From assembly GCA_014802725.1 (NCBI GenBank), contig JAAVBS010000001.1, positions 1 to 64,000 on the forward strand: a stretch of DNA of 64,000 bases, read 5' to 3'. Below are positions 28,531 to 60,100 of this stretch, one piece after another. Under the pieces are notes generated by a model. The model ran no database searches, was not told where the DNA came from, and saw nothing but the letters and a program-made list of their open reading frames with translations. The stretch comes from a bacterium (GTDB lineage: Bacteria > Bacteroidota > Bacteroidia > Bacteroidales > P3). Numbering within the stretch: the stretch's first letter is position 1; every line of letters starts with the position of its first letter. The position numbers and the translations under genes were made by a program.

Positions 28531-29214
28531 TTAAAAAGCCTCTTCTTTAATCCGGCCGTCCGCGCACATAAGGATGCGGGACGGGAACTTGCTAATCATC
28601 AAAAAATCGTGCGTGGCCAACAGGACGGCGCAACCGCCCTTGCTGATTTCCACAAGCAGCCGCATGATTTCCTCCGACGTACCGGGGTCCAAATTACCCG
28701 TAGGCTCATCGGCCAAAATCAACTCCGGCTCGTTGAGCAACGCCCGCGCGATGGCCACCCGTTGCTGCTCGCCGCCCGACAACCGGTACGGCATCTTGTA
28801 AGCCTGTGTCTTGAGCCCGACCTTGTCCAGCACCTCTTCGATACGCTGTTCCATCGCGTCCTTGTCTTTCCAAGCCGTAGCCTTGAGTACGAACATCAGG
28901 TTGTCGTGTATGTTGCGGTCCATGAGCAACTGGAAATCCTGAAACACGATGCCGATTCGACGCCGCAGATACGGAATTTCCTTGTCGCGCAGGCCATTCA
29001 AGCCATAGCCGCAAACCTCCACCTCGCCCGCCTGTACCGGCAGGTCGGCGTAAAGCGTGCGCAACAGCGAACTCTTGCCCGTACCGGTTTTGCCGATGAG
29101 ATAGACGAATTCGCCGCGCCGCATCGACAGGTTGACCTGCGACAGAATCAGGTAATCTTTCTGATAGACGTCCAACTGGCGGACATCGATAACGGTATCG
29201 GGTGCGTTTTCCAT
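28531..29214 (-). CDS. ftsE: FtsE-like ABC transporter ATP-binding protein
   Basis: 227 aa; LIGKTGTGKSSLLRTLYADL, RRRIGIVFQDFQLL, LSGGEQQRVAIARALLNEPELILADEPTGNLDP. Confidence 0.88.
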   Translation of the reverse strand: MENAPDTVIDVRQLDVYQKDYLILSQVNLSMRRGEFVYLIGKTGTGKSSLLRTLYADLPVQAGEVEVCGYGLNGLRDKEIPYLRRRIGIVFQDFQLLMDRNIHDNLMFVLKATAWKDKDAMEQRIEEVLDKVGLKTQAYKMPYRLSGGEQQRVAIARALLNEPELILADEPTGNLDPGTSEEIMRLLVEISKGGCAVLLATHDFLMISKFPSRILMCADGRIKEEAF

Positions 29215-29238
29215 AAGTGTCTGCTTAGCTATATCGGG

Positions 29239-31779
29239 TTATTCGCCCATCCCCATGGCGGCCTTGACGGCCTGTATATCGGCCTTCAAGGATTCCATTT
29301 CGGTTTTCAGTCTATCGATTTCGGCGGCCTGCGTTTCAACGGTCTGTTCCAACCGCTGCGTATATTGCCACAACACGGGCAACAGGCCGATATAATTAAG
29401 GCTTTTCAATCCCTTGCCGTCGGTTTGTACGAGGTGCGGGAAATAGACCTCCACCTCCTGTGCGATAAAACCGAACTGCAACGTCTGCTTTTCATCGGCC
29501 TTGAAACGGTAACGTACGGGTTGCAAAGCCTGCAAGACCGAATAATCGGCGTCCAACGGTTGGATATCGGTTTTAAGCGTGCGGTCGGAATAGGTGCCGG
29601 TACCATTGCAATAGACGGTACCCGGAACCCGAAGTTCGCCTCTTTCCGAAAGTTCCAATGCATTGCTGCGGGCGCTTTCCGCCGTTCCCACACCCACCAC
29701 CAAGGCGGCCGGACTGCCGTCATTGAAATTCGCCACCGCATTGAACCGTCCCAACACCACGCCGGTATTGTCCGTTGCCTTCAAGCTATAACCGAGCAAC
29801 ATCGCCCCCCAGGTTCTATAGGAGGATGCATTCCACGTTACTGAATTGTCACTTCCTATGCACAGGGCCCTATTGGAAGCAAGCCCCATGGTAATCGTAT
29901 TGGCACGCCCGATGGCGATACACCGGCTCGCCTTCGTTATGGTATTCTCATATCCCAAACTGATATCCGATTCCCCATCGGCAATCGACAAGGCGCGCCC
30001 CATCTGCACATTGTCCCGGACGCGGGTTCTATCGCTGGAACCCGTTGTCTTATTGTTTGCGCCAATGGTGATGTTATATCCCCCTTCCCCTGACGTTTCG
30101 GCAGACTGACGCTGGTTATTACTCGTTCCCAACACGATGCTGTTGGGTTCGAGGGTTGAAAGATTAGTGCTTTGCCCTATAACAATGGCATTATTGGCCT
30201 CATTCATAACATCATACCCCATGCCGATACCATACGCGCCGCCCACGTTGAATGATGCAGCTCCGAGATCCGCCGCGTGACCGGAACCGATTCCGATGGC
30301 ATTCTGACCGGAAACTTTAATCTGCGTACCCAAAGCCAAAGCCGTAATACCGTCCGCCCGCGCGGTTTGGCCGAAAACCATCGCCCCCTGGTCCATCGCC
30401 TCCGCCGCTTTACCGATGGCTACATTATCCGCTTGCCGCGCTTTGGCATCCGTCCCCAACGCGATGGACCCTTCCGCCAAATCGGCCCATATACTGGAAG
30501 CATCCTCCAGTTTGCCCATACGTAAGGCACCTTTACCGCTATGCCAATAGAAATGATTGCCGGCCGTCCAATTGACATCTTCAACCGCTTCTCCTTCCGC
30601 TTCGGACAACAGGAACGACCCGCCCTGCATATGGAAACGGGTTTTAGGCGCACCGCCGGTACCGACCCCCACCCGCAAACTTTTTCCAGGCGCGTCTTCG
30701 GCTTCATTGGTATATACATAATAAGCTCCCGCATCCGACCGGGCTTGCCAAACACCGCCGCCAAAATTCAATACCGGGGTAGGACCGTCATAGTTTATGC
30801 TCACGCCACTCCCCAACACATGCGGTTGGCTCTTGCCATTGGCATCGCCGACCCAAACGTTACGCTGCGGCAAAGTATTGTACTGAAGGTTATTGTCGCC
30901 CGACACGGTGGCGTTAACCACCACGGTGCCTTCCAAGCGCGTGGCTTCCTCGCTGACGAGTTCGTCTTCCACAACCACCCCGCCGGTTTGGTCATCATAG
31001 TGCATACCGGCCGTCCGCAAAGCCCCGAGTTTGCTATTGGCCGTCGCATCCCAATAAACGAACTTCAAATCGTCGCAATCCGCACAATCCGTACCGCCTC
31101 CGCCACCGCCGCCGGCTCCCCATTCCAACGTGCCCTTATCGTCTGTCAGTATCAACACTTCGCCCTTCTTGCCCCGTGTGGCCGGAAACGTATATTCATC
31201 GCCGTTTTCAAACGTGAACGTGATTTTATCATTGAACTGGACGATACCCGAGTTGACCAAACCGCCCCGTTCCCCGCTGTATTTGGGCAGGTAGCCGTCG
31301 TTTAAATCGAAGCCCACCCCGGCATCGCCGGCATAGAGCGCATAAGGCACCGAAAGCAGTTCGGAAGCCCCCATCATCGTATAGCCGTTGTTGTCGGACT
31401 GTATTTCCACCTGGGCGTAAATCGGGCTGTTTTTCCACGGCACCTCCGACAAACTGGCGCATCCCGCATGCGAAACATCACCGCGGCCTATTTCCAACAA
31501 CAGCAGGCCGAACGGATCGGTTGCCAAATCCGTATGCGTTTCCTGATACAGAATCGTGCCGGCCGGCGTTCCCTGCCGCAACGTAATCCGCACGGCCAAG
31601 CCCGTCCGTTCCGACATCGGTTCGCCTTCCACATCGCGCAACACCGCCTGATATTTGATAACGGGCGGCACACCCTCCGCCCGCAAGCCACCGTTCATCA
31701 TAACCGACAGGCTCAACAATCCGGCACACATCCACCTCAGCCAATTTCTTCCTGATCGTTTCTCCATTTCCGTATTCAC
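29239..31779 (-). CDS. Large surface/tail-fibre-like protein: N-terminal Bacteroidota domain, Gly-rich hinge, YadA-like head repeats, C-terminal S74 (chaperone of endosialidase) domain and coiled coil
   Basis: 846 aa; IKYQAVLRDVEGEPM, GAGGGGGGG, repeated NVAIGKAAEAMDQGAMVFGQTARADGITALALGTQ units, YSDRTLKTDIQPLDADYSVLQALQPVRYRFK...FGFIAQEVEVYFPHLV. Confidence 0.88.
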   Translation of the reverse strand: MNTEMEKRSGRNWLRWMCAGLLSLSVMMNGGLRAEGVPPVIKYQAVLRDVEGEPMSERTGLAVRITLRQGTPAGTILYQETHTDLATDPFGLLLLEIGRGDVSHAGCASLSEVPWKNSPIYAQVEIQSDNNGYTMMGASELLSVPYALYAGDAGVGFDLNDGYLPKYSGERGGLVNSGIVQFNDKITFTFENGDEYTFPATRGKKGEVLILTDDKGTLEWGAGGGGGGGTDCADCDDLKFVYWDATANSKLGALRTAGMHYDDQTGGVVVEDELVSEEATRLEGTVVVNATVSGDNNLQYNTLPQRNVWVGDANGKSQPHVLGSGVSINYDGPTPVLNFGGGVWQARSDAGAYYVYTNEAEDAPGKSLRVGVGTGGAPKTRFHMQGGSFLLSEAEGEAVEDVNWTAGNHFYWHSGKGALRMGKLEDASSIWADLAEGSIALGTDAKARQADNVAIGKAAEAMDQGAMVFGQTARADGITALALGTQIKVSGQNAIGIGSGHAADLGAASFNVGGAYGIGMGYDVMNEANNAIVIGQSTNLSTLEPNSIVLGTSNNQRQSAETSGEGGYNITIGANNKTTGSSDRTRVRDNVQMGRALSIADGESDISLGYENTITKASRCIAIGRANTITMGLASNRALCIGSDNSVTWNASSYRTWGAMLLGYSLKATDNTGVVLGRFNAVANFNDGSPAALVVGVGTAESARSNALELSERGELRVPGTVYCNGTGTYSDRTLKTDIQPLDADYSVLQALQPVRYRFKADEKQTLQFGFIAQEVEVYFPHLVQTDGKGLKSLNYIGLLPVLWQYTQRLEQTVETQAAEIDRLKTEMESLKADIQAVKAAMGMGE

Positions 31780-31803
31780 CGTTAAGATTGAGAAAATATC
31801 GCT

Positions 31804-32442
31804 TTAGTTTTTGATAATCTTGTAAGTTTTGACGCGGACCGCCTCCGGACGGCGCGCGGCCTCATCCGCGTTCAACCGCAACGTCAGCCGCAACAGATAC
31901 GTACCGCCCGGGTAGGCCGACAGATCCAAGGTTTCCTGCCAAGGCAAGCGACCGACCGAAGCGTGCTGCAGCCGCCGGCCGTGCAAATCCGTCAATACGG
32001 CTTCGGCCACCATACCGTCCGTCCCCAGCGGATTGAGCACCACCTGCAACGGCCCGTGCGTCGGGTTCGGATAGCAGCGGATTTCCACCAACCGCTCCGT
32101 CTCCACGCCCAAAGGCCCCCATATCGAATCCGCGTCCATATCCGCATTCATTCCGATGGTATCGAGGATAAATCCTTCGCCCTGCAAAAAGCCCTGACTC
32201 AGGATTTTCTTGGAGTTCGTGTAGGTTTCACCCATGGGTTCGCCTATCGACCAAGTTATCAGGCACGGTTCTCCTCCCGTACCCAGCGTCTGCCGCTCTT
32301 CCGCACCGCCGGAAGCCAATACTTCCCGCCCTATCGTCTGGGCGGAAAGCAGACCGCAGGAGCCACCGAGCCCCAGAAAGACCGCCAGCGTCAACAGACG
32401 TCCGATACGCCCCCGAACATGCTGTCCGTATTGTTTTTCCAT
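31804..32442 (-). CDS. Small secreted protein with T9SS type A sorting-like C-terminal domain
   Basis: 212 aa; signal region, CYPNPTHGPLQVVLNPL...AVLTDLHGRRL...LDLSAYPGGTYLLRL...VKTYKIIKN resembles the T9SS CTD. Confidence 0.82.
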   Translation of the reverse strand: MEKQYGQHVRGRIGRLLTLAVFLGLGGSCGLLSAQTIGREVLASGGAEERQTLGTGGEPCLITWSIGEPMGETYTNSKKILSQGFLQGEGFILDTIGMNADMDADSIWGPLGVETERLVEIRCYPNPTHGPLQVVLNPLGTDGMVAEAVLTDLHGRRLQHASVGRLPWQETLDLSAYPGGTYLLRLTLRLNADEAARRPEAVRVKTYKIIKN

Positions 32443-36154: not shown

Positions 36155-39100
36155 TTATTTTTTCTCCGCCTGTTTGCGCGCTTTCCGTTCTTGACGCCGT
36201 TTTACGCGCTCTTCTTTCGTGGGGCCGATGCGAGAGAACAATTCCTTGCCCGTGTTGAAATCGCGGCGGAAGATAACGCCCAAACCCTGCGTATAGGTAT
36301 TGTCGGGCTGGTTCAGGCTCTTTTCGTTAGAACGGTTGAATGCCTTGAGGCGTAACTGCTCCGTGAATTTCCATTCGATATTGACATCGCCCACCACCGA
36401 TGCGGCGGCCTTGGCCTCCACTTCCGAAACGCCGATATTGCCGTCTATCGACAGGCGGTCATCGAACAACTGCCCCGACAGCATAACCTGCAACTCGGAC
36501 TCGTTCATCTCACTGGCCGGGGTGTAATTCATACCCACATTGAAATTCGTCGATAGGCGGGAAAGGAAATTATTAAACTGATTGAACAACAATTCCGAAG
36601 AAGACACCAGCGCATTGTTGCCCGCCATCGCGCCCCCCTGATCGTTACCGACGGACATAAAACTGTTGAACATGAGCAGCGAGAACGTCTGCCGTATCAT
36701 CTCGTCTTCGTCTTCCTTGTTGACATAGCTGAAGAACAAATCCTGAATATCCGCCTCCACATTCGGTAGGTTGATGTCGAAATGGATATCCGGATTCAAC
36801 AGGTTGCCGTCCAAGTCTATGATGCTTTCCACACCGACTTTCTTGCGCAGGTTGCTTTCATCTATCAACGAGGAGCCGGCCGAGGCCAAAACCGGATAAA
36901 GGCTTGTCCGCGCCGTATAGACCGCCTCCACATCCACGCGGGCGTCCGTTACCGGTCCCGTCCAGACGATGCTGCCGCCTTCCTTGAGTTTAAACCGTTT
37001 GTTGATCAAATCCATCATCGAAAAATCGAACATCCCGGCCAAAATACGGTAGGTACCGAACAATTGGGTGCCGCGCGAATCGACGAGCAGACGCAGGTTG
37101 CCCTCGCCCGTCGCGTCCAAAAGGCCGTTAATCGTCGTATTGCGGATATCGAGCCCCACCTCCAAATCGGGGGTGACTTCCAAGGCCAATTCCACCGTCA
37201 GATGCCCGCCGCGTTGCCTTTCTTTCTGCCGATGCCGTGCATAGAACGCCTTTAACGGGTCTATATCCACGGGGCGCTCCGATTCGAAACGGACGAAATT
37301 GGAAGAAGAGGCACCGGAGGTGGAAGAAAGGTCGAAATCGATATGGGAATCTTCCTCCGTCCGTCCCTTGACGGCGATGGAGAGTTCGTTCGTAGGCCCG
37401 GTGATATCCACCCGACCGGTGGCGAAAACACGGCCGGAATAGAGCATTTCTTTGCTCGGCTTGGTGTTCAACACCAAGAAATTCTCGAAATCCAACCGCA
37501 ATTCCAACGCCATGTCTTTGAAATAACGATGGCGGATGAGCCCGCCCATACGTCCCTGCGTGCCATATTGTATATCCCGCATCCGGGAGTTGCTGAACCG
37601 GATTTCGTTTTCCGTCAACCGCAATGCGAAATTACTGAACTGATAACGCGTCTGCAGGATTTTAACCGTCATCGCGATGTTGCGGCTCTCGCCCTGCAAG
37701 TCCCATTTCATTTGCTTGGCCGGCCCCGAAATACGCAACGTGCCGTCCATATCACCCGCCAAATCCGAGGCGAAACTCCGCAAATAACCGCTCAGGAAAT
37801 GCACGGGCAACTTCTTCATCTTACCCTTGAAGTCCATCGATTTGTTGGCCAAATCATAATAGCCGCTCACACTCAGCAACGGATAGGGCACCGTATCGGG
37901 GCCTACGGTCAACTGACCGTTGATCCGACGGCTTTCGCGATTGAAAACGGCCTTCAATTGCCCTTTGCCATAAGCCCCGCCATTGAGCGCAAGCCCCTCT
38001 AACGCGATATCCGACATTAAATTGAAACTCTGCTTAGGGTCGCGTACCTGCAACGAGCCGTTGATGGTGCCGGCCACCTCCATGCCGGCCTGCCGCGTAA
38101 ACGGCGACAGATAGGCCATATCGAACGAACGGAACGCCAAATTGAGCGTAGCCGCCGTATCGGCCGCCCAACGGCCGTTCAGCAAAACGGACTCGGCCGT
38201 CTGCAAGGCACGGAGGCCGATGTTCTCAAACCGCATTTCGCCTTTGCGCCAAAGCCACGAAGCGTCCGGATAGATTTGCCAAGGATGCCCCGCGAATACG
38301 AAATACGAACTATCGAAACGCATCCGCAACACCTGCATATCGGACAAATCCACGGTGGCCGCCCAATAGCCGGAGGACCTGGCATGGCCAAGGCTGTCGG
38401 GGGCGTTCAACCAACCGAGCCGCCAATCGATGCGGCGGCCACTGTCCAACGCCACCTCCGTTTGGAAATTATGGAGCGAAAGGCTGTCGTTCAGGTAGAT
38501 GGTGGAGGCCGTTACGGAAGCCGACATCCGCGTGTGGGTGACCGCATCCGTCTTGAGACGGACGCTACCGTCGGTAAAGAGGATATTCTTAAAACCGATG
38601 TAACGGCTATCCAGCCGCAGGTCGCAAGCCGGCGCGTCCGCATCATAATGCAGACTCAGACGCGTGTTGTCGTCCAGCTGCAGGGCGGGAACGAACAATT
38701 CCAACAAACGGTTGATGCCGTAAACCTGGCCGTCGTAACGATAGGCGGACAAGACCAAATTTAAATCGAACGCCTGGGCGTCTTGCGCCGGACGGGCCGA
38801 CTTGGCGGTCAAGCCGGGCAGATAGGCGTGCAACACGTCTTTGTACAGGGAGGGCAAACGGCTGATGGTGTAATGTCCACCGAGGGTCAATTGCAGGAAA
38901 TCGGACGTGACTTCGGTGGTTTTATGCAGCGAATCCGTCTCATGCGTGGTCAACCGCAGGCCCGGCAGGTAAAACGTATAGCCGTGCCGTTCCACTTGCA
39001 GTCGCTGCACGTCGAAATTGCCCAGCAAATCGTCCAAACCATGCCCCACATAGTCGGTGGAAACCTCACCGCTCAAAGTAAACGGCTGTTTGTCCGCAAC

Positions 39101-40702
39101 AAATCCCAAAGCCTGCAGGTCTATTTTACGGGCTTCCAAAGCGTAGCGGGAAACCGGCTCTTCCTGTTCGTAATCCAACAAGCCGTCGAAAGTGAAATCG
39201 AGCGCCGAATCCGTGCCGATGACCGAACCGTGGAAATAATTTTTCCGAAGCTGACCGTTCAGCAAAACGGTATCCATCGGCCGTCCTTTCAGACTCAGGT
39301 TGAACAAACGGCCGTCCAACGCGTAACGCATCTCGTCGATATGCGTCCCCATGACCTCCACCTGCAAATCGGCATCCACGGTGCCGAACATATCCGAACG
39401 CCCCGTCAACAGCCCTACATTGAGTTCGGAAGCCGTTACCGTACCTTTCATCTGCGAGGCTGACGAATCCTGCGAACGGACATCCACGGTAACATCGCCC
39501 AGATTGGTACGGAGGGCCAAACGGGTGGTGAATTTGACCAAGTTGCCCTTAAAATCGCCCTGCAAGGCGGCCTGTTCCAAATCCGCCAAGGCCGATGGCA
39601 ACGACAGGCGGCCCGTAGCGAAATCTTCTATGCCGAGCAGGTCTTGACGCGTAACGTTGAGATCCTTCAGTTTCAAATCGATATCGCCGCTATCCCGCAG
39701 CATCGGGAATCCGCGCCAATGGATATCGGCCGAAAGCCGGCCGGTTTGTCCGAAACGCACGTTCAAATCGCGAACGCATATATCTTTAAGCGGACCGTTC
39801 ACCCGTCCAGAGAGCATGACGGTTTGCCGATAGGCCTGCAACGGCGTGGCGAAATAGCCCAAGTCCTGCGTAGCCAAACGCGACCCTTTGGCCACGTTGG
39901 CCGAAATCGCGACCGATTCGGCAAAATGGCGGAACGCCCGCGGATGACCATACCCGAATTGCAACTGACCCTTGATATGGGAGTATACCGTTTCCAAATC
40001 CAAATCCCGCACTACCAAGCGGTCGGGGAAAAAGCCGACCCAGCCGGTCAAATGCCGCACGTCCAAACCGCATTTTTCCCGTGCCGACAGCGACTGTACA
40101 CGGGCACAGATATGCTGATTGAAAATATGCAGGTTGCGGATATGCGCATTGAAAACGGGCACTTCGATGTGTTTGAAGTCGATGCGGCCATCGGCGCGCA
40201 CCGGCACGGCCCGGTTGTCGTAAACGAACAAACCCTCTTCCACGCGCAAACGCCGGATGGAGGTAACGCTCCGCTTATCCTTATTCTTTTTGAGCGTGCC
40301 CAATTGTTGAAGCAAGGCCTTGAAATCCGACACGCTGTCGGCCGACGGGCGGATGATATGGATGCGTGGCCGCCGCACGGAAAGCACCGCGATGTCAACG
40401 CCCTTGAACACATAATTGGAAAAAGCGAGATAGACCGATTCGGCTTCGACCATCGGCTGGCCTTTGGTATCCGATACACGGAAATCGCAAACCCTGACCG
40501 CCTTTTTGAACAGACTGAACTGCAACTGCCCCACCTGCACGTCCAAGCCCGACCAACGGCTACAGAAATCGCCCGCATAACGCCCCGCGGCCGATTGAAA
40601 CCACACGGAATGCAGAAGTCCGGAAAGCAACAGCACGAATATCAACAGGAACCCGCCGATGCGTTTGAGCCAGACGCCCCCATATTTTAATATTCTTTTC
40701 AA
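36155..40702 (-). CDS. tamB: TamB-like translocation/assembly module protein (DUF490)
   Basis: 1515 aa; N-terminal TM, AsmA/TamB-like beta-rich body, C-terminal NPDIHFDINLPNVEADIQDLFFSYVN...EVEAKAAASVVGDVNIEWKFTEQLRLKAFNR...YTQGLGVIFRRDFNTG. Confidence 0.9.
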   Translation of the reverse strand: MKRILKYGGVWLKRIGGFLLIFVLLLSGLLHSVWFQSAAGRYAGDFCSRWSGLDVQVGQLQFSLFKKAVRVCDFRVSDTKGQPMVEAESVYLAFSNYVFKGVDIAVLSVRRPRIHIIRPSADSVSDFKALLQQLGTLKKNKDKRSVTSIRRLRVEEGLFVYDNRAVPVRADGRIDFKHIEVPVFNAHIRNLHIFNQHICARVQSLSAREKCGLDVRHLTGWVGFFPDRLVVRDLDLETVYSHIKGQLQFGYGHPRAFRHFAESVAISANVAKGSRLATQDLGYFATPLQAYRQTVMLSGRVNGPLKDICVRDLNVRFGQTGRLSADIHWRGFPMLRDSGDIDLKLKDLNVTRQDLLGIEDFATGRLSLPSALADLEQAALQGDFKGNLVKFTTRLALRTNLGDVTVDVRSQDSSASQMKGTVTASELNVGLLTGRSDMFGTVDADLQVEVMGTHIDEMRYALDGRLFNLSLKGRPMDTVLLNGQLRKNYFHGSVIGTDSALDFTFDGLLDYEQEEPVSRYALEARKIDLQALGFVADKQPFTLSGEVSTDYVGHGLDDLLGNFDVQRLQVERHGYTFYLPGLRLTTHETDSLHKTTEVTSDFLQLTLGGHYTISRLPSLYKDVLHAYLPGLTAKSARPAQDAQAFDLNLVLSAYRYDGQVYGINRLLELFVPALQLDDNTRLSLHYDADAPACDLRLDSRYIGFKNILFTDGSVRLKTDAVTHTRMSASVTASTIYLNDSLSLHNFQTEVALDSGRRIDWRLGWLNAPDSLGHARSSGYWAATVDLSDMQVLRMRFDSSYFVFAGHPWQIYPDASWLWRKGEMRFENIGLRALQTAESVLLNGRWAADTAATLNLAFRSFDMAYLSPFTRQAGMEVAGTINGSLQVRDPKQSFNLMSDIALEGLALNGGAYGKGQLKAVFNRESRRINGQLTVGPDTVPYPLLSVSGYYDLANKSMDFKGKMKKLPVHFLSGYLRSFASDLAGDMDGTLRISGPAKQMKWDLQGESRNIAMTVKILQTRYQFSNFALRLTENEIRFSNSRMRDIQYGTQGRMGGLIRHRYFKDMALELRLDFENFLVLNTKPSKEMLYSGRVFATGRVDITGPTNELSIAVKGRTEEDSHIDFDLSSTSGASSSNFVRFESERPVDIDPLKAFYARHRQKERQRGGHLTVELALEVTPDLEVGLDIRNTTINGLLDATGEGNLRLLVDSRGTQLFGTYRILAGMFDFSMMDLINKRFKLKEGGSIVWTGPVTDARVDVEAVYTARTSLYPVLASAGSSLIDESNLRKKVGVESIIDLDGNLLNPDIHFDINLPNVEADIQDLFFSYVNKEDEDEMIRQTFSLLMFNSFMSVGNDQGGAMAGNNALVSSSELLFNQFNNFLSRLSTNFNVGMNYTPASEMNESELQVMLSGQLFDDRLSIDGNIGVSEVEAKAAASVVGDVNIEWKFTEQLRLKAFNRSNEKSLNQPDNTYTQGLGVIFRRDFNTGKELFSRIGPTKEERVKRRQERKARKQAEKK

Positions 40703-42427: not shown

Positions 42428-45400
42428 TTATTCATCGTAATCTTCGTAATCTTCGTAACCTTCATCCTCCCAATAGCCCTCGTCTTCGTCCGGGTCAACG
42501 TCTTCTTCAGACGATTCCGCCGCGTCTTCCACGGCCGATACCTCCGCCCCTTCTTCCGTTTCCTCTGTATCGTCCCCTTCATCCGTCCAGTCTTCGTAGC
42601 CGCCGTAACCGTCGTAATCCCCGCCGGCCGCCTCATCCAAGCCCGTTTCGGTTTCATCCGCCGCAACGTCCGGCTCGTCATAGCCTCCCCCGTAATCTTC
42701 AAATTCCGCTACAAAGATATTCTTTTTTCGCATTGTTGACAGCGTGTACTGGAATTTTCCCTTACGCCGCTTGCCCGGCTTGATTTTTTCTATCGCGTCG
42801 TTAAAGTCTTTGTCGGATGAAAGCACCTGTAAAATATGGTCGGCATAATTAAAGTAATACCAATTATAACGCGAGCCCTCTATGTATATATTTATCACAT
42901 CTCCCCTGCGACCGCGGCTTATTTGGGCATAGACTTTCATTTTTTTGTCAATGCGGTGCGGCCCCACCGTCAGCAATTCGCCCGTGCCGGTGGAACGGTA
43001 GGAAGACGTCCGCGGATCCCATTCAAAGCCGAGATTGGTAAACACCAAACCTTTCTGCCAAGCGGACGGGATGCGGTTGATACCGCCGTAGGCCTGCAAT
43101 TCGTTCCGCATGGCCTGGGCCTCCTGCTTCGACATCGTTTCCTGTATAAAGACGTCGAACATCGGGTTGTCGGCCAAATTGCCCGCCGTCAGATTCGTAT
43201 TCTTGTTGAGTTCGTCGGCCATCCGCTTGAACAAAGCGGGATTGAAAAAGAAATCCAACTTCCAGACCACCTGCATGAACAAATCGTCCGCGGACGCGCC
43301 TTCTTGGAACAACTGCCCGTAGAACGACGTTTGCAACGCATCGGTCCGCAAATCCAACCGCAACTCGCCCGTGGCCGACGACTCGCCCTCGGTCAAATCG
43401 TAAGCCAACACCTCGTTGTCGTTGCTGTCCAAAATCAGATAGGCCTTGTCTTCGGGAGAATAACACAAAAAGCCCTCGGCATCGGCAATGGGTTTTTCGT
43501 TAGACAACAGCGGTTCCATAAATACGAAATGCGGCCGCCCGTCCGAAGCGGAGAAGAAGCCCGCCCGCATGGCGCGGCCGCGCCCGTTCTTGGTACGCTC
43601 CGTAACCGGTATCCGGATGGATTCCGGATTCAAATAAGCCTGGAACTTAAAAGCCGAGGTAAGCCAATCGGTTTCTTCCGCGTCAGCGGCATCCGTCTCA
43701 TCCAACAACCGGTAACGCAAACCGGCCATGCCATCGAAATACAGATCTGCGTTCCCCCGCTCGGCGGCCGCCTTGCCCGAGGCCGTTACCTTGCCCGAAA
43801 ACTCAAAACCTTCGTCCAAGAACAGATATTCTTCGTCCACGGTGGCGACGGCCTCGGACGTACTGTCGGCGTTACGCACGTGGATGCGGTCGAAATGAAC
43901 GGGTTGCGGCTCCAAACCGGGGACTTCGTAGGTAAACCACCCGTCGGCTTCATAACGCCAGGCCGATTCTATCTGCCCGTTGACCTGTTGGAACGCATAA
44001 GCCGGGTCTTCTCCTGAAAAATACAGCACCGCATCTTCAAACGGCGCCAGGCGGCCGTTCGGTTGAACGCTCACGCGGTTTTCGGCCGGCACCCAGTAGG
44101 CGTCGGCCACCGGCAGGCCAAAGACCCCCTCGCAGACCATCAACGTGTCTTTATAGTAGAGCGTGGAATGCAAGGCATTGAATTTCAAATCAGCTTGCGA
44201 CTTGGCCGTGGCGTGCAACGTCAATCCCGTTGAATCGACCTCATCCTCAGACGCCAACTGATGCTCCAAATACAGCTGTTCATCCGCCCATGTCCATTGC
44301 AAATAATAGGCTTCGGCCTCGTAGGCCTGCACGGGCATACGGACGGAGATGGGCTCGTCGGGCACGTCCGAACCGGAGGCCAACATCTGCAAGGTTTTGG
44401 CTTCCACATCGCCGGCTATTCCAACGCCTTTCGCTATCAGGTACGCATCCCGGCCGCCGGCGCGACCGCCCAACTGGAAATCGGCCTCATCGGCCTCGAA
44501 CCGGCTTCCTTCCCAACGCCAATCGGCCGACTTGATCCGTGCATCCGGCCCGAAGACCATTTCGCCATCGGCCTCCGTGCCGCCGGCAAAGAGCGCATAA
44601 GTACCGTCGAACCGCCAAGGTTCATAATAGGGGTACAGCGAATGCCGGTTGGTGGAGGTCAAGCGCAGCTGCGCCGTTTTCCCGTCAAAAAAGCCCCGCA
44701 CGCTGTCGGCCCGCAAGTCCGGATAGGTTGCGCCGTCTGACACCGGATATTTAGCCATGTCCTGTTCAAAGCGTTCCGCTACCATATCCATGTCATCGGG
44801 ACGGAAATAGAACGCGCGCGAATGGGTTTGCGAAGCTAAGAAATCGAAACGGCCATTGCCCACCAAACCTTTCTTATCCAAACTCAAACTGTCGGTAAAA
44901 CGGGCCCGGTTACCGTAAACCGGCCAACCGTCCTCCGGCGAAACGGTCTTGAAACCCAAAGAAAAATCGGGCATCACGACCAAACGTTCGTTTATATCTG
45001 GAAATATCCCGGCCGAAACCAACGTACCGTCGAAATGGATACTGTCGATGGAGAACGTATTGAGCCGCAACAAACGGAACGGATCGACACGGAAATAAAA
45101 ACTATCGGCGAGATAGGCGCCACGTTGTATATACGCATCGTCATAATAGACATACGATGGAATCGTACTCTCGAAAATAGGATAGTCCGGACAATCCAAA
45201 CGCCCGCCCTTGTTGACGTTGCTATCTATATACAGCAATCCCGACAGACTGTGGATCAATGTGCTGACCTTAACTTCCTGCCGCATCCCGTATTCATCCG
45301 CCTTGCCCGGCACCGAGAACAATAACGAATCGACCAAACCGATTTCAACCGTAAAATCCTCGTAAGAGAAACGCGCGTCCTGCACATCGAAATCGAATGT

Positions 45401-47212
45401 GCCGGCATGCAGAATGCCATCGAAATACAGCGAACGGTTGCGTCCTATCGATAATCCGCCGCCATTTGGGCGGAAATAAACCCGCTGCTTAGGGCTCAAA
45501 ATCACTTCTTTGACTTCCTTTATCGCCAACATCAGGCTGTCTTCGGTCTGCATTTCGGCCTTGACCCAAGCCTTGCCCGATGCCAATATCTCGATACGGT
45601 CGAAATCGGATTTATTAGCCGAAACCGCCAGATACAGATAGAGTTTAGGCAACAATTCGATTTCCTTTTCCTCGGCCCGGTATGTCAGGAAGCCGAAAGA
45701 GGAAAGCCGCAACATCCATTGGGACAGCATCGTTTGGTCCATGCCCCAGTCCGAAGCCAGATTGTCGAGCCCGATGCGGTCGGACCCGTAATAGTCGGCG
45801 GCCTTTTTGAGCCGATACAGCGGATTGAAAGACATCCCCTGCATAATTTCCTCCAACTCAGCCTCTTCGTAGGCCTGCAAAGACGTTATGCGCACCACGC
45901 CCTCCCGTTCCGGCACGGGCAGAATGCCAAACGTTACACGTCCCTGCTGCGGAAACCACTGCATATGTTCGTAGGCCAAGTCTATTTGGTGATAGGTGCT
46001 CAGGGCCGGAATCTCGAAAGCGAACAGTTTGGAATGCGCGAAGGTAAACACCTGTTGCGCAATATCGTAACGCATCTCACTGGTTTGATGATACAGCGAA
46101 TCGTTTTCACCCAGATAAATCCGCCACGAAACCATGGAAGACTGCAACTTCTCGTCCTTATAAACGATGCGGGCCGCCTCCACCACACCGGCTACCTTTT
46201 CCGCCTTGCGGACCGTAAGCCGCGCCGGCTGCTCGTCGGTGCCGAACACCATACGCGCGCCCTGCTGCACATAGGGGGCTTCGATGTCCAAGTCGGGGAA
46301 GAAATCGGGCAACAGTAAGCGTTCCCCGCCCGACAGGAACTGCGGATAGGTGGCCGCTTCCGGAGCCGTCAACACCGAGAGTTTTTCGACCAAACGCCCC
46401 GGAATGGGATCGGGGTAAAGTTCCGTATGATAAAAGATGGCCGAATCGGTTTCGTAACGGTTGGAATTAAGGTTGAGGCGGTAATTATAGATGTTAGCGT
46501 ATATCCTTCCGCCGGACGGCCCTATCCGCCGCCAATCGACCGTACCGGCCTCGCCGAGGAACGTTTGGGCCAAGGGGTCGTAATCGCCGCTTGCCGAATA
46601 GATAACGCTGCTGTCGTTGTAGGCCGTGCATCGGAGCGTGAGGTCATCGTAATGGAAAACGCCGCGCGTGCCCGCCTCCGCGTCCCAAACGGGGCGGCCC
46701 GCCAAGACCATCCAGGTGGCGCGCGTGGAAGCGGCCAACTGCCGTTCGCTCAAAAGCGCCAGCGTCCGCTCCGTCAAGCGTGAGAAATCACGGATTTTAT
46801 GCTGCTCCAACGTCTGTGCCACCGAACCGAGCCAGTCGCCGTTCCAAGCGTAAAGCGCCGTATCGATAAACCACTGGGCCTTCAAGAATATATATACATC
46901 CGGGTAAAACCGGAATTGTTGCGCCTGCGCCAACGCGCAAATCCGCCCGACCTGCGCGGCCGTTTCCGAACCCATCTTGGGGGCATACAGGGCGTAACCG
47001 GCAACAAAGGCCGCCATGTCACGCTTTACGTCCTTGGATAGGTTGGGGTCGGCATCCACCCATTTCTGTAGCGCGGCGGCCGTCTCGGTTTCCGACGAAA
47101 AGTCAATGGAAGCGATGGCCGTCCGCTGGGCCCGCGCCGTGGAAAAACCAGCGGGAATACCCAAAAGCAATCCCCACAACCCGCATATACAGAAAATAAG
47201 TTTTGTCTTCAT
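42428..47212 (-). CDS. Very large (~1594 aa) uncharacterised exported protein with acidic, aromatic-rich C-terminal tail
   Basis: Single long ORF with signal peptide MKTKLIFCICGLWGLLLGIPAGFSTARA (ATG 47212; ORF track start 47254 is upstream); beta-rich body; C-terminus EEDVDPDEDEGYWEDEGYEDYEDYDE; no family recognised. Confidence 0.85.
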   Translation of the reverse strand: MKTKLIFCICGLWGLLLGIPAGFSTARAQRTAIASIDFSSETETAAALQKWVDADPNLSKDVKRDMAAFVAGYALYAPKMGSETAAQVGRICALAQAQQFRFYPDVYIFLKAQWFIDTALYAWNGDWLGSVAQTLEQHKIRDFSRLTERTLALLSERQLAASTRATWMVLAGRPVWDAEAGTRGVFHYDDLTLRCTAYNDSSVIYSASGDYDPLAQTFLGEAGTVDWRRIGPSGGRIYANIYNYRLNLNSNRYETDSAIFYHTELYPDPIPGRLVEKLSVLTAPEAATYPQFLSGGERLLLPDFFPDLDIEAPYVQQGARMVFGTDEQPARLTVRKAEKVAGVVEAARIVYKDEKLQSSMVSWRIYLGENDSLYHQTSEMRYDIAQQVFTFAHSKLFAFEIPALSTYHQIDLAYEHMQWFPQQGRVTFGILPVPEREGVVRITSLQAYEEAELEEIMQGMSFNPLYRLKKAADYYGSDRIGLDNLASDWGMDQTMLSQWMLRLSSFGFLTYRAEEKEIELLPKLYLYLAVSANKSDFDRIEILASGKAWVKAEMQTEDSLMLAIKEVKEVILSPKQRVYFRPNGGGLSIGRNRSLYFDGILHAGTFDFDVQDARFSYEDFTVEIGLVDSLLFSVPGKADEYGMRQEVKVSTLIHSLSGLLYIDSNVNKGGRLDCPDYPIFESTIPSYVYYDDAYIQRGAYLADSFYFRVDPFRLLRLNTFSIDSIHFDGTLVSAGIFPDINERLVVMPDFSLGFKTVSPEDGWPVYGNRARFTDSLSLDKKGLVGNGRFDFLASQTHSRAFYFRPDDMDMVAERFEQDMAKYPVSDGATYPDLRADSVRGFFDGKTAQLRLTSTNRHSLYPYYEPWRFDGTYALFAGGTEADGEMVFGPDARIKSADWRWEGSRFEADEADFQLGGRAGGRDAYLIAKGVGIAGDVEAKTLQMLASGSDVPDEPISVRMPVQAYEAEAYYLQWTWADEQLYLEHQLASEDEVDSTGLTLHATAKSQADLKFNALHSTLYYKDTLMVCEGVFGLPVADAYWVPAENRVSVQPNGRLAPFEDAVLYFSGEDPAYAFQQVNGQIESAWRYEADGWFTYEVPGLEPQPVHFDRIHVRNADSTSEAVATVDEEYLFLDEGFEFSGKVTASGKAAAERGNADLYFDGMAGLRYRLLDETDAADAEETDWLTSAFKFQAYLNPESIRIPVTERTKNGRGRAMRAGFFSASDGRPHFVFMEPLLSNEKPIADAEGFLCYSPEDKAYLILDSNDNEVLAYDLTEGESSATGELRLDLRTDALQTSFYGQLFQEGASADDLFMQVVWKLDFFFNPALFKRMADELNKNTNLTAGNLADNPMFDVFIQETMSKQEAQAMRNELQAYGGINRIPSAWQKGLVFTNLGFEWDPRTSSYRSTGTGELLTVGPHRIDKKMKVYAQISRGRRGDVINIYIEGSRYNWYYFNYADHILQVLSSDKDFNDAIEKIKPGKRRKGKFQYTLSTMRKKNIFVAEFEDYGGGYDEPDVAADETETGLDEAAGGDYDGYGGYEDWTDEGDDTEETEEGAEVSAVEDAAESSEEDVDPDEDEGYWEDEGYEDYEDYDE

Positions 47213-47223
47213 GCCGTTATCGG

Positions 47224-48066
47224 TTATCGGTACTGAAATGCCAAGGCCGTCCACGCCTCACGTGTCTTCATGGCTTGGAACGTAAAGCCCAGAGCCTCGG
47301 CCCGCTCACGCAAAACGGGTACATCGCTCTCGTAAAACCCGCTCAGGAACAACCGCCCGCCCGGCCGCAAGGCCTCGGCATAGGCCGGCAGATGGTCCAA
47401 CAGGATGTTGCGGTTGATATTGGCCAAAATGGCATCCACGCGGCGGCCGGCCAACTGCTCGCCGCTGCCCTGCGTTACCGTGATGCGGTCGGAAAGATGG
47501 TTTCGCGCCACATTCTCCCGCGCGTTGGCACAGGCCCAGTCGTCGTAGTCGATGGCCGAGACGGCCGCCGCGCCTTCCTTGGCGGCCAGCAATCCCAAAA
47601 TGCCCGTACCGCACCCCATATCCACCACTTGCCGACCCTCCCAATCGTTTTCGGCGATAAATTCTATCATCAGGGCCGTGGTGGGATGGTGCGCCGTACC
47701 GAACGACATCTTGGGCTCTATCTCCACAAAATGCTTGACGGCCGGCCGTTGGGTATGAAAGGGGGCGTGCACGAAACAGAAATCGCCGATTTGTACCGGC
47801 GCGTAATGGCTTTCCCAAGCCTGATTCCAATTGACATCCGGCATCTTTTCCCATCCGCCCGCCTGCACGTGCCCGTATTGCGCCATCACGTCCGCGATGG
47901 CCGCGTCCGCCTCATCCGGTTTGCCGGCCGTTTCCGGCCAATAACCGATCAGTGCGCCCGCTTCCTGCTCAAAGCTCTCAAAACCCAAATCGCCCAAATC
48001 GGATACGAACAAATCCGATTCGGGCGAAACGAGCGTATGTGTGAATACCCTTTTATAGTAACCCAT
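47224..48066 (-). CDS. prmA: Ribosomal protein L11 methyltransferase
   Basis: 280 aa; MSFGTAHHPTTALMIEFI, VVDMGCGTGILGLLAAKEGAAAVSAIDYDDWA, ILANINRNILLDHLP. Confidence 0.96.
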   Translation of the reverse strand: MGYYKRVFTHTLVSPESDLFVSDLGDLGFESFEQEAGALIGYWPETAGKPDEADAAIADVMAQYGHVQAGGWEKMPDVNWNQAWESHYAPVQIGDFCFVHAPFHTQRPAVKHFVEIEPKMSFGTAHHPTTALMIEFIAENDWEGRQVVDMGCGTGILGLLAAKEGAAAVSAIDYDDWACANARENVARNHLSDRITVTQGSGEQLAGRRVDAILANINRNILLDHLPAYAEALRPGGRLFLSGFYESDVPVLRERAEALGFTFQAMKTREAWTALAFQYR

Positions 48067-54174: not shown

Positions 54175-57100
54175 TTAATTCACCAACTTATAAATGATGC
54201 TGATACCGCCCTTGCCCGTATGGTTGTAGAACAAGTTGGCGATATGCGGTTTATTGATCGTCATATCGTAGAACACTTTCGCCGACAGTTGCTTGGTGAG
54301 TTCATACTCGGCGTAAATGTTGATGGACGTGACCAACGAACCGGCCGATGGCGTGCTGACGTTTTGGTCGATGCGCCGCAACACCGTTTTGGTGTCGCGT
54401 ACGGAAACATCGGCCTTCAACACGATGTCGCTCGTAATCTTCCGCTTGGACGAACCGCCGGAATTGACCTTGAAACCGACGTTCTTGATGCGGTAGCCCG
54501 CGCCCGCCACCCACGCGCTGCTGCTCACCTCCGTAATTTGGTTGTTGACGAAGCTCAAACCGATTTGACGGCTCTGACGGTACTCGAAATTGAAACTGAG
54601 ATCGTTCTTCAACGTAAAGGCCACCTTGATCAAGGGCGCGAACTGCTCGCTCAGCACCACCCCGTCGAAGACATACTGCGAGATAAAGTTCATGTTGTCG
54701 TCCAGGCGGCTCGGATGGTCCATCGAGAGGTCGTACAGCACGTTGTTGGTATAGGAACCCACGCTGTAAGAGGAGGTATAGGCATGGGAAAGCGTAAAGT
54801 TCTTGAAGATTTTACGCATGGCCTTGATTTTGGTAAGACCGCTGTAAGACAGCGACCAGTTGGGCAACGGGAAACGGCTGAGCGTGGACAACGACATCTT
54901 GTAGGGGTCGGCGCCCGTATAGGCGGCCAACAGGGCGGTCAGCATGACGTCCTGCGAATTGGATTTGTAGCCATACGGATAATAAGCGCCCGCCACGCTG
55001 TCCCATACATCGGGCCGGCCGGCGGCGTTGGGGTTCCCGTCCGCAAGACGGCCGGCCATAATCCGGCGGTATTCCAAAAAGCGGTCGTAGGTCTCGTTGT
55101 TGTGCTGGTCGTCCGTCCGCTTGAAGGCCGTCTTGATGAGAACGGTCGTTACGTTCATGTTGCCGTTCTGCAACGGGTTCGTGTTGCGGAACGCGCCGGA
55201 GACCGCATCGTAGGTATAATAGCCCGAATTGTTTTCGGAGCGGCTGTAGCCCATCGTCAGCGAGATACGGAAATCGGGGAAGGGCTCTATTGTGGCCTGC
55301 CCGCTGAACGTCTGCGTAAACTGGTTGTAATAAGGCGACGTAAGCAAACTGTCGGTCGATAGCCAGCCCTGGGCCGCCGCTTTTTCCAGGATGTCGCCTT
55401 GGGCGCCGAACAGCGCAAAGGCCGCGCCCGGCGCCTGATGCTTGAGGTTAACGCCGAAGATATCCGGCTCCAGCATAAAGCCCGGTATCGTCGTCCCCTC
55501 GTTGCGCGACCACGTCACACTCGCGTCCCGCACCATCATCAAAAAGCGCAACGCCCCCTTGTAGGTCGTTTCCCAAACCGTGGCCTTATCCACCTTAACG
55601 CGGTTGTCGTCACCGCTCCCCATGGCCGAATTGCTCCGCGTGGTACGGCGCGACCGGTTGCGGCTCGGCTGGTTGATTTTTTTGAGGAACGGCACCTTGT
55701 TGTAGAGGCCCACGAAATTGACGTTGCCCGTGGCGTTGAGGTTCATGTTGTTGGCAATCGTATTGCCCAAACGGTCTTGGATGGCCAACGCGCCGGCTTC
55801 CCAACGGTAGGTGGTCGCATAACCGAAATTGGCGTTTATCCAATCCAAGAACGGAATCTTGTTGATCGGCAATTTATACGTAATATTGACGGCCTGGTCG
55901 AAATTACGCAACTTGCCGCCCGTCAAGAAACTGCGCCAAATGGAATCCTTTTTGTCGCGCGTGTCGATAAGCCCGAGCGGCTCTTCCAAAAACGCGTTGG
56001 CGTTGGCCGAATACTTCAGCGAGATGGACTTGGTGATGTCGTAGCCGAACGTGTAATAACGGTTCCAGTTGAATTGCTTATAGTAGGTGGGATTCAACAG
56101 GATATCCCATTCGGGTGTCTTGTTGCGCAATTTGGTGGCCGTAAAGTCGCGCTGCAAATCCATACCGAACGAGAACTGGTTGGGCACGTAGTTGAAATTG
56201 AAATCCGTCAGAAGCGCCAAGCCTTTTTTCTGCGCCAATTTGGTTTTGGCAAAAGGCTCGAAGAACTTGGAAGACGTGGAATAGTTATAGCCGATGCTCC
56301 CTTTGTGGATGAACTGGTTGTCGTATTCCATGTCCTCGTTGCGGCGCAACGTGCTCGAATAGGCATACGAGATATTGAAATTCTCGATATCCCAAAACAT
56401 CGGCGCCTTGTCCGAATTCGTCCGCTCTTTGCGCACGTTCATGAAATTGATGTTCTGCCGCAACGTATAATCCTGAACCTGATGTTTGAACGCCTTTTTA
56501 TCCGCCGCGCTGTAGTTGGCCAACACGTGTTTGGTCTTGACATCCGGATCCAGCGGGTTGTATTCCGGATTGCTGATGATGGACGACAGGTCGTAGTGTA
56601 CCGGCAATTTCAAGCCGGCTTTTTCCGGCACGAACTTGCCCAACTCCAAATTGACGGATATGTCGTAGGAGCCGATGTTTTCTTGCGGTAATTCGGAGAT
56701 TTTCTGTTCGATGGAGCCGAAGTTGGCCGTCGAATAACTGCCGCCCACGCTGATATTGCCCAAATCTCCCAGATTGGCTTGCGCCCGTGCAGTGGCCGCC
56801 ACGCCGCTCTTTTTACTGAACTCATTTAAGCTCAACTCATTGACCCAAACATTGACGGAACGCGGCATGCCGTCATCATTGTCGCCTATATATTGCTTCT
56901 GCGGATTGCGGACCCCGATGAGAATCGACTTGACGCTGTTGATGGCCGGCGTACCCTTGACCGTATAGCGTCCCTTGCCGACAACCTCGGCATAGGGCAC
57001 GGTTTGCAGAATGCCCGGCACACCGTCGCGGATGGCCGCGTCGCGATGCTCCTTGACCGATACCAACGCTGACAAATCGATTTCCACCTTGTTGGCATCC

Positions 57101-60100
57101 GGCCACACCAATTCCCGCGCGCTCTCGTACCAACCCGTATATGACAGCGGGATTTCGTACTCGTAGTAGTTGTCCTGAAAGTCCGACCCCACGCGGACGA
57201 ACAGCCGCACGTCGCCGTCCACCTCGCGGTCGTATTCGTTCACTTTCTCCAAGTGGACATACATTTCCACCTTTTTGAACTGGCGGAAATCGTAATTCGT
57301 CGTTTTATAGATACCGCGGGCATCGCCATCGGCCAAATTCAATACCGTCATGCTCAAGGCCTGCTCGTTCATGCGGCGGTTGTTTTGGTCGGCCGGATCG
57401 GTCACGCGCTCGATGCCCGGCGGCAACACATAGCGCACGGGCGTCCGGTTGCCGTTTTCCTCGATGTTGACGACCGAAATGTCGAATTCCGTATTGGCCG
57501 TACCCGCCGAAACGTGCATGTCGTTTTCCAACAGCGGCTGGTCGTATTTGCGCCAATCGGACTTGACGAGGTCCAAGGCCGCGAAACGCAGGACAACCGG
57601 TTGCGAGAACTTGGCCAAAAACATACGGATAAAACGGATGGATTGGAAATTCTGAATCTGACCGACCGTGCGCGTCGGGGTCTGGATCGGAATCTTGAAA
57701 TGATACCAATTGACATCTGTTTCCTCGTTGTTGGCCAAGGTGACGTGCGAACGCTGGATATCGACGATGTAGTTCCGTCCCACCTGCATCTCGTCGGGAT
57801 GCAACGGCACCTCGTATTGGAAATAGTTTTCGGCCTCGCTCAACGTATTGTCGGCGTTGATGTCTTCCGTATTCGGGTAGTTGGTCTGCTGGGTGGGGTA
57901 ATCTTCCGGATTGTTGGCCGATGACGGCGAGTTGCCGGCCGGGTTGTTGAAATACTTGTAACGGTCCTCTATTTTGGTGGGCGAAAACGCCACGGTGTCC
58001 CAACGGCTACTGCTCCGGAAATAGACATAGTCGTCCTGCGCGGGGTCGTCGTATAGGCGTTGATAGGCACTGTTCGTCGTGCCCAACAGCGCGGCCACGG
58101 CCGTAAGGTAATCGCGGTAAAACGACCGCTCGTCCTCGTCATTCAAGCCGTTGAGTCCGATATCCTGGAACGGGCGCGTGGCCGGGTCGTTGTCGAACGT
58201 CTGTACAAGCGACTGTATCTTGGGAACGCGGCCCCACTGCGTGGTATCCACATCCACCACCGTGGCCGAAATCGGCATCCCGTTCTCGAAACTCTTGCGG
58301 CCGTCGCGCAGAATGTCTTCCGAAATGTCGCCGAGATTGAAAAACAGCGAACCGCCCGCATGCTTCGGCCGCCCTTCGAGACCATCCATGCCGATGAACG
58401 GGTCCATGACCCAAAATTCGATATACTCCACGTTCGAAGCCTCGAAGTTCGTGTTGTCGATTTTACGCATGATACCGCCCCAACGGCTGGCCGGATCCCG
58501 CAACAAACCCTCCGCCGTCATACCGGCGGAAATGCCCGGTACGGCATCCACGTCGAAGTTGTAAGGCCCTTTCTCCGACGGATAATACGCCAAGTTCAGC
58601 ACCGACAGATAGTCGGCCTGGTTGGTGGCCTGTTCGCGGTTGGGAAACACCTCGGTAACGCGGATTCGGCGCACGTATGGCAACGAAATATCGTCTTTGG
58701 TGATGTTGCGCGGCCGGTTGTTGCCGTAGAAAATGGGATCGACCGTGTACCACGCCAGTTTGGCGCGGTTGAAACCGCTCGCCCGGCTCTCCGCCAAATA
58801 GTCGGCCGATTCAGGGAACAGATCCTGCTGCTTCTGCGGCGTACTGGCCAACTGCCACGAATAGGCTTCCTTGAGGTTGATCGTGCTCTTGGCGCCTTCG
58901 AAATCGTCAATGTAGGTAATCCCCTCTTTGGTAATGGCCTTGGAGTGCCCCGGAATGAAATGGGCGAACTCGCCGTAGAGATTCAACGAGGCCGGCATCT
59001 TGGACGATTGGAAGGGCAACATTGCGTCCACGGCCTTGGTCAGCCAGCGCGACTCATTGGAATACGAGAAGTCGAAACCGTACAACGTGTTGGAAATAGG
59101 TTCCTCGCCGTAATTGACCTTATAGGTCAGCGGCGATTGGTGCAGGTTCAACAGCGTGGCGCCCACATAAAAATCCTTGTTGAAGAAATGTTCCACCCGC
59201 AAACCCAGCATCCGCTTGGTCAGCATACCGCCGGCCGTATTGCTCTCGGTGGAGATGTTGATGGGTACGCCCGAATTGAGTACCCCCTCGTTGATGATTT
59301 GAACGATACCGGCCGTATAATTGACCGTATAGTCGGAACCTTCCTGCAAGACCGTATTGCCGGCCGTCACCTTGACGGAACCTTGCGGCAGGTTATAGAC
59401 ACCGAGCGAAATCTCGCTGCCCTGCGCCGACTTGTACGTACCGCCCATGTAGTACTTGTTCTTGTCGGGGTACTGCTGGGCCTCGGTCTTCGTATAACGG
59501 TACAGTTCATTGTACGCGTATTTCTTGGCCATCGCGCTGTCGCCGCCGAAAATGGCCGCGAGGTCGGCGCCGAACGGTTCCACATACGGGAAATAGATCA
59601 AACCTTTGTTCGACTGGATATAACCGGCCCCCGTGGCCGCATTGTCGAGAAAGTCGAACACGCCGTCCGGATTCCGGTTCATCTGATAATCCAGATTATC
59701 CATGCCGAACACCTGTATCAACGGTATGCCGCTCAACGGCCCTTCCGTAAAATAGCCGGCCGGCACGCTCTGCCCCTCGCCCGTGTACATGATGTTGAAA
59801 CGGAAGTTCTCCGGACTGATTTGGTAACTCTTGAGCGCATAGACGTTTTTCATCATCAGGTCCCACAGCGGGCTCTCGGTATTGAGCGTGGTGGCCTTCA
59901 ACAATTTGACGACAAGCACCTGCGGGTCGTTGATGCCTTGGTCCGACAATTCGCCCACCTGATAAACGGTGGTGTCGCCCACAATCTGGTATTGATAGGC
60001 CACGGCCAGCACCTGGTCGCTTCCGAGCGGCTGGCTCAGCGAGATGAAACCCAACTGCGGGTTGAACGTATATTCGGTGGCCGCCAAACGCCGCGCGCTC

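Follow-up and report, generated by a model that had tools for sequence, protein, structure and literature searches.

A predicted modular surface fibre with a MAT-like N-terminal domain and its small T9SS-sorted gene partner in Bacteroidota

Introduction

The closest described counterparts of the fibre reported here are the mosaic adhesive trimer (MAT) fibres of Bdellovibrio bacteriovorus, which are displayed on the cell surface and whose crystallised tips are trimeric. One of them was shown to cleave itself at its S74 serine, and the surface element bound by the conserved MAT N-terminal domain was left open by that work (PMC10769870). S74 domains act through catalytic dyads such as S911/K916 of endoNF and S587/K592 of MyRF, the latter protein being cleaved directly before its serine (PMC8326128). 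Among T9SS-dependent adhesins, those of type B pair with PorP/SprF shuttles (PMC12618676, PMC9143113). A search of the open-access literature returned no paper describing MAT-like fibres in Bacteroidota, which does not disprove that one exists elsewhere, and nothing on T9SS export in trans.

Here, a stretch of 64,000 nucleotides from a member of the Bacteroidales (the window: contig JAAVBS010000001.1 of assembly GCA_014802725.1, positions 1 to 64,000) carries on its minus strand a small gene that probably encodes a T9SS substrate, followed after 24 nt by the gene of a long fibre. Both open reading frames have the coordinates, strand, lengths and spacing given in the initial annotation. That annotation had missed three features of the locus: the homology of the fibre N-terminal domain to that of MAT fibres, the interchangeable nature of the fibre tip and the link to an ftsE-like gene within one family of genomes.

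The fibre protein

29239..31779, minus strand: fibre protein P0001, 846 aa (842 with an ATG start); open reading frame
31675..31779, minus strand: predicted signal peptide, aa 1-35, without a lipobox Cys; from the sequence and a predicted helix at 9-28
31330..31674, minus strand: N-terminal domain (NTD), aa 36-150, remote homologue of the Bdellovibrio MAT N-terminal domain; from NF053851 and pLDDT
31069..31119, minus strand: Gly-rich linker with a genus-specific Cys pair, aa 221-237; from the alignment
29692..30465, minus strand: YadA-head-like repeat shaft, 17 repeats, aa 439-696; from NF033478, 1P9H and the list of repeats
29377..29589, minus strand: S74 intramolecular chaperone/protease, aa 731-801, predicted cut Y730/S731, dyad S731-K736; from PF13884 and 6F45
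29254..29367, minus strand: C-terminal coiled coil, aa 805-842; from heptad-like sequence and weak matches to coiled-coil families

The annotated start of the fibre gene is a GTG, and the near invariance of Met5 suggests that the true start is the ATG 12 nt downstream. The NTD of the window matches NF053851, the model of the MAT N-terminal domain, with an E-value of 5.1e-5 and 23.1 bits against a curated cut-off of 60, and is thus called MAT-like rather than a member of that family. Its relatives match the same model in 12/12 and 77/77 cases (E<=1e-3, the best at 3.4e-13), and control genomes gave no match anywhere. AlphaFold models the domain with confidence (pLDDT >90 across most of aa 41-140). 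A fold search of this model against the PDB returned no match at E<=0.001, a sequence search of the NTD against the PDB returned none, and its viral matches were generic beta-sandwiches. Further along the chain, what had been taken for a poly-Gly/Cys hinge is only partly a general feature, its Gly run being shared widely and its Cys pair being confined to the genus; a functional hinge formed by the Cys pair was rejected on this ground.

The shaft matches the YadA model NF033478 (7.3e-6) and, over aa 442-572, the solved YadA head 1P9H (4.9e-5), in line with the head repeats recognised initially, and many glycines of its repeats are invariant among 11 aligned long fibres of the family. Like the YadA-type trimeric autotransporters, the fibre has YadA-head-like repeats; unlike them, it gives no match to a YadA membrane anchor and ends in S74 and a coiled coil, and its assignment as a classical YadA autotransporter was therefore rejected. 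Peptidase_S74 (PF13884) is found at aa 731-784 with an E-value of 1.1e-14 and 54.9 bits against a cut-off of 22, and aa 710-833 match the structure of a phage long tail fibre (6F45, 3.9e-6). The YSDRTLK motif, initially described as intact, is so: within SDRTLK the residues S731, D732 and K736 are invariant in 11/11 aligned long fibres of the family, and SDxxxK is kept in every S74 domain of NTD fibres, both in the phylum draw with the family (37/37) and in the named genomes (35/35). The spacing of +5 between S731 and K736 is that of the endoNF and MyRF dyads. The presence of an S74 chaperone with an intact dyad on the fibre is firm, and a trimeric, self-trimmed fibre is likely, judged by homology. 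The resemblance to the S74 domains of phage tail fibres and MyRF, which covers the PF13884 score above cut-off, the Ser-Lys spacing and the C-terminal coiled coil, comes with the difference that the S74 domain of the window sits on a chromosomally encoded, secreted bacterial protein whose self-cleavage is predicted from sequence.

The tip is not constant. Of 77 NTD fibres, 28 have S74, 15 collagen, three Fib_succ_major, three YadA_head and two Peptidase_G2. Mapped on a tree of the NTD that was built from few columns, changes of the S74 tip number at least four on well-supported branches and 23 by parsimony. Fibres of the window type have the MAT layout, in which a signal peptide and the conserved domain are followed by a shaft and a variable tip.

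The small protein

31804..32442, minus strand: small T9SS-sorted protein P0002, 212 aa, 24 nt upstream of the fibre; open reading frame, copies in relatives
32338..32442, minus strand: predicted signal peptide, aa 1-35, ending LLSAQ; from the sequence, Q35 invariant in alignment A5 and a predicted helix at 3-31
32149..32337, minus strand: head domain, aa 36-98, SxGG ... W-x-IGE ... QGFxQ; from invariant glycines
31807..32094, minus strand: predicted T9SS type A CTD, aa 117-212, YPNP ... GxYxL ... YKIIK; from profiles, relatives and a model

Two genomes of the same genus have copies of the small protein that are 71-74% identical to it and likewise lie upstream of the fibre. The T9SS CTD claimed for it initially is detectable in the protein itself, by Por_Secre_tail (PF18962; 5.1e-4, 20.7 of 27 bits) and TIGR04183 (1.2e-3, 18.7 of 23 bits), in both cases under the curated cut-off; it is made secure by relatives. 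Among 47 relatives encoded next to NTD fibres, 39 match TIGR04183 (type A, E<=1e-3) and five match TIGR04131 (type B), so that 44/47 combine the same head with a CTD of one or the other model, which indicates that the T9SS address is kept while the type of CTD changes. The family profile also matches the solved translocon-bound CTDs 8GLK/8GLJ, and AlphaFold models the CTD of the small protein as a confident beta-sandwich. With a signal peptide, a CTD at the extreme C-terminus and a T9SS in the genome all present, the identification of the small protein as a T9SS substrate is firm through its relatives and weaker from its own scores. It resembles T9SS type A substrates (TIGR04183) in its signal peptide and C-terminal Ig-like CTD, and differs from them in scoring under the cut-off and in that its presumed cargo, the fibre, is without a CTD.

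The head domain has three glycines (G46, G67 and G84) that are invariant in the 47 relatives. Modelled alone by AlphaFold it gave low confidence, which would fit a head that needs a partner, but a shallow alignment gives the same result. Six loci (L225, L231, L241, L255, L260 and L262) have a type B-like CTD behind the head in place of the type A one, with no recognisable PorP/SprF-like gene alongside.

Recurrence and gene neighbourhood

A draw of 396 Bacteroidota genomes was searched with one profile of the NTD (A1) and one of the small protein (A2). The NTD was found in 78 of these genomes, with up to 12 matches in a single genome (G114, G143 and G148). In the loci fetched from this draw and from the family of the window, the small gene lies upstream of 74/98 NTD fibres, 66 of them within 60 nt. 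It lies upstream of 49/93 fibres in 80 named loci, which were picked by NTD similarity and are biased towards the NTD of the window itself. The two sets overlap; taken as distinct complete NTD fibres across Bacteroidota, 100/158 have the small gene, mostly within 30 nt. The remaining 37% have no small gene directly upstream, some standing in tandem arrays or near contig ends and others being truly solitary. Named carriers of the pair include Leeuwenhoekiella, Winogradskyella, Reichenbachiella, metagenome-assembled genomes labelled Chitinophaga pinensis and uncultured Bacteroidales. Recurrence had been set beforehand as the observation on which the pairing should stand or fall, and it proved far wider than expected. 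SprA is present in 78/78 genomes with the NTD as against 305/396 overall (hypergeometric 1e-10, not corrected for phylogeny). In the window, sprA lies at 54175-61377 (TIGR04189, 2477.8 bits); it is indeed there, as the initial annotation had pointed out, at a distance of about 22 kb from the pair and not linked to it.

No NTD fibre carries a C-terminal CTD of its own (0/98 and 0/99 in overlapping sets of about 160 fibres, that of the window included), which bears out what had been proposed for the window fibre. The same CTD profile, as a positive control, finds a CTD on about 30/40 S74 proteins that lack the NTD and come from the family of the window, and the fibre was rejected as a direct T9SS substrate. 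These other S74 proteins form a second class of about 320-540 aa, without the MAT-like NTD, in which a T9SS CTD follows S74 and SDxxxK is kept (L003, L062, L069, L070, L072-L075, L077, L078, L080-L088 and others); self-cleavage in this class would part the N-terminal portion from the T9SS signal. Elsewhere, S74 proteins of 247 and 316 aa without a CTD (L065:2940-3683 and L067:7349-8299) adjoin proteins of about 590 aa with a CTD-like tail, which may reflect the same split of roles in a different family.

28531..29214, minus strand: ftsE-like ABC ATPase, the next gene, 24 nt past the fibre, a conserved neighbour within the family only; TIGR02673

Other genomes of the family repeat the arrangement of the window, in which the long fibre lies between an upstream small gene and a downstream ftsE-like gene (TIGR02673, 1.9e-71, 240.2 of 264.85 bits in the window), the flank beyond the small gene being variable. 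The ftsE-like gene stands beside the long fibre in 9/9 further loci of the family for which that side is sequenced. It follows the fibre directly (28531-29241 in the window; L051-L060) and in some genomes, such as L052 and L058, overlaps it by a few bases, which suggests translational coupling. Loci of other families have no ftsE-like ORF, and its status as a third gene of the module was rejected because it adjoins the fibre in this family only. Promoter and terminator scans gave no more than shuffles did. Elsewhere in the window, two large minus-strand ORFs, 36155-40702 (1515 aa) and 42428-47254 (1608 aa), have no NCBIfam match at 1e-5.

Discussion

The Bacteroidota fibres share with the MAT fibres of Bdellovibrio (NF053851; PMC10769870) a signal peptide, a homologous N-terminal beta domain of about 110-130 aa, a long shaft, interchangeable tips, an S74 tip with SDxxxK and many copies in some genomes, the largest number of NTD matches in one genome calling to mind the repertoire of the Bdellovibrio MAT set. 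They differ in adjoining a T9SS-sorted small protein, in their YadA-type or collagen shafts and in the lack of a predation context. With the T9SS type B adhesins and their PorP/SprF partners the locus has in common a conserved gene pair and surface adhesins that use the T9SS, the latter being proposed for the window. There, however, the adhesin bears the CTD and its partner is a PorP/SprF-like outer-membrane protein, whereas here it is the partner that bears the CTD.

Recurrence of the pair across Bacteroidota, together with a fibre that is never tagged, makes the small protein a good candidate for the export or anchoring partner of the fibre, and it is probably the fibre's surface partner. 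We lean towards reading the pair as a MAT-like modular trimeric surface adhesin, partnered and anchored by the T9SS-exported small protein. The fibre would be made with a Sec signal peptide and would form trimers by way of the YadA-like shaft and the S74 chaperone at its C-terminus. After folding of the trimer, S74 would cut the chain at Ser731, shedding about 116 residues and exposing the tip of the shaft, with the N-terminal domain facing the producing cell. The small protein, addressed to the T9SS by its CTD, would be exported by that system and then held at the surface, where its head would bind the NTD and so anchor the fibre, and possibly carry it out. The trimer, its cleavage, the contact of head and NTD, the anchoring, the export route and the adhesive role are what we infer. 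A stronger form of the same reading, a phylum-wide T9SS route in trans in which the small CTD protein binds the NTD, delivers the untagged fibre to the SprA translocon or takes it through, and anchors it, is put forward tentatively and is in our judgement rather less probable than its being false. Shedding of its own C-terminus would deprive the fibre of any C-terminal T9SS signal, and this would account for the presence of the signal on a separate polypeptide.

It is conceivable, and we think somewhat unlikely, that the small protein serves purely as a receptor at the surface, with the fibre crossing the outer membrane independently of the T9SS and then docking on the T9SS-displayed head. The MAT fibres of Bdellovibrio, which have an N-terminal domain of this kind, do arrive at the surface (PMC10769870), and some NTD fibres are solitary; yet SprA is present in all 78 NTD genomes of the draw, and outside the family the surroundings of the pair showed no linked gene for an alternative exporter. 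The reading that we favour has against it the 37% of fibres with no small gene directly upstream, the low confidence of the head model and, to our knowledge, the absence of a T9SS from Bdellovibrio, which uses this kind of N-terminal domain too. Nor need the two proteins touch at all: they could be two surface proteins with independent functions whose genes co-regulation keeps side by side. Distances of NTD and head correlate with an r of 0.645, a value that only 0.1% of the re-pairings made within genomes with several pairs attain, but the CTD passes the same test (p 0.005). The test thus shows that the pair is inherited as a unit; it does not show contact, which adjacency and co-inheritance alone cannot demonstrate. 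Against independence, the adjacency outlasts many families, changing tips and a changing CTD type, more than co-regulation usually preserves, and no NTD fibre has a CTD of its own; we regard independence as improbable. Far less credible still is a captured phage tail fibre or prophage remnant without a surface role of its own. Phage fibres are the best-known setting of an S74 tip (6F45), and within the family S74 genes do occur in phage-like surroundings (L059, L061). The fibre, however, has a Sec signal peptide and an invariant dyad, no phage genes lie nearby, and ftsE, trigger factor and clpP-like genes flank the pair at the same place in several genera; prophage origin was rejected on the neighbours, the signal peptide and the conserved position.

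With the pair read as a fibre and its T9SS-exported partner, the small protein becomes a concrete candidate for what the MAT-type N-terminal domain binds at the surface. Export in trans, if true, would leave the C-terminus of the fibre free to be a self-shedding chaperone, and if the small protein carries the fibre out, the T9SS would accept cargo whose signal resides on another polypeptide. The module also provides a large set of swappable, predicted surface fibres in Bacteroidota.
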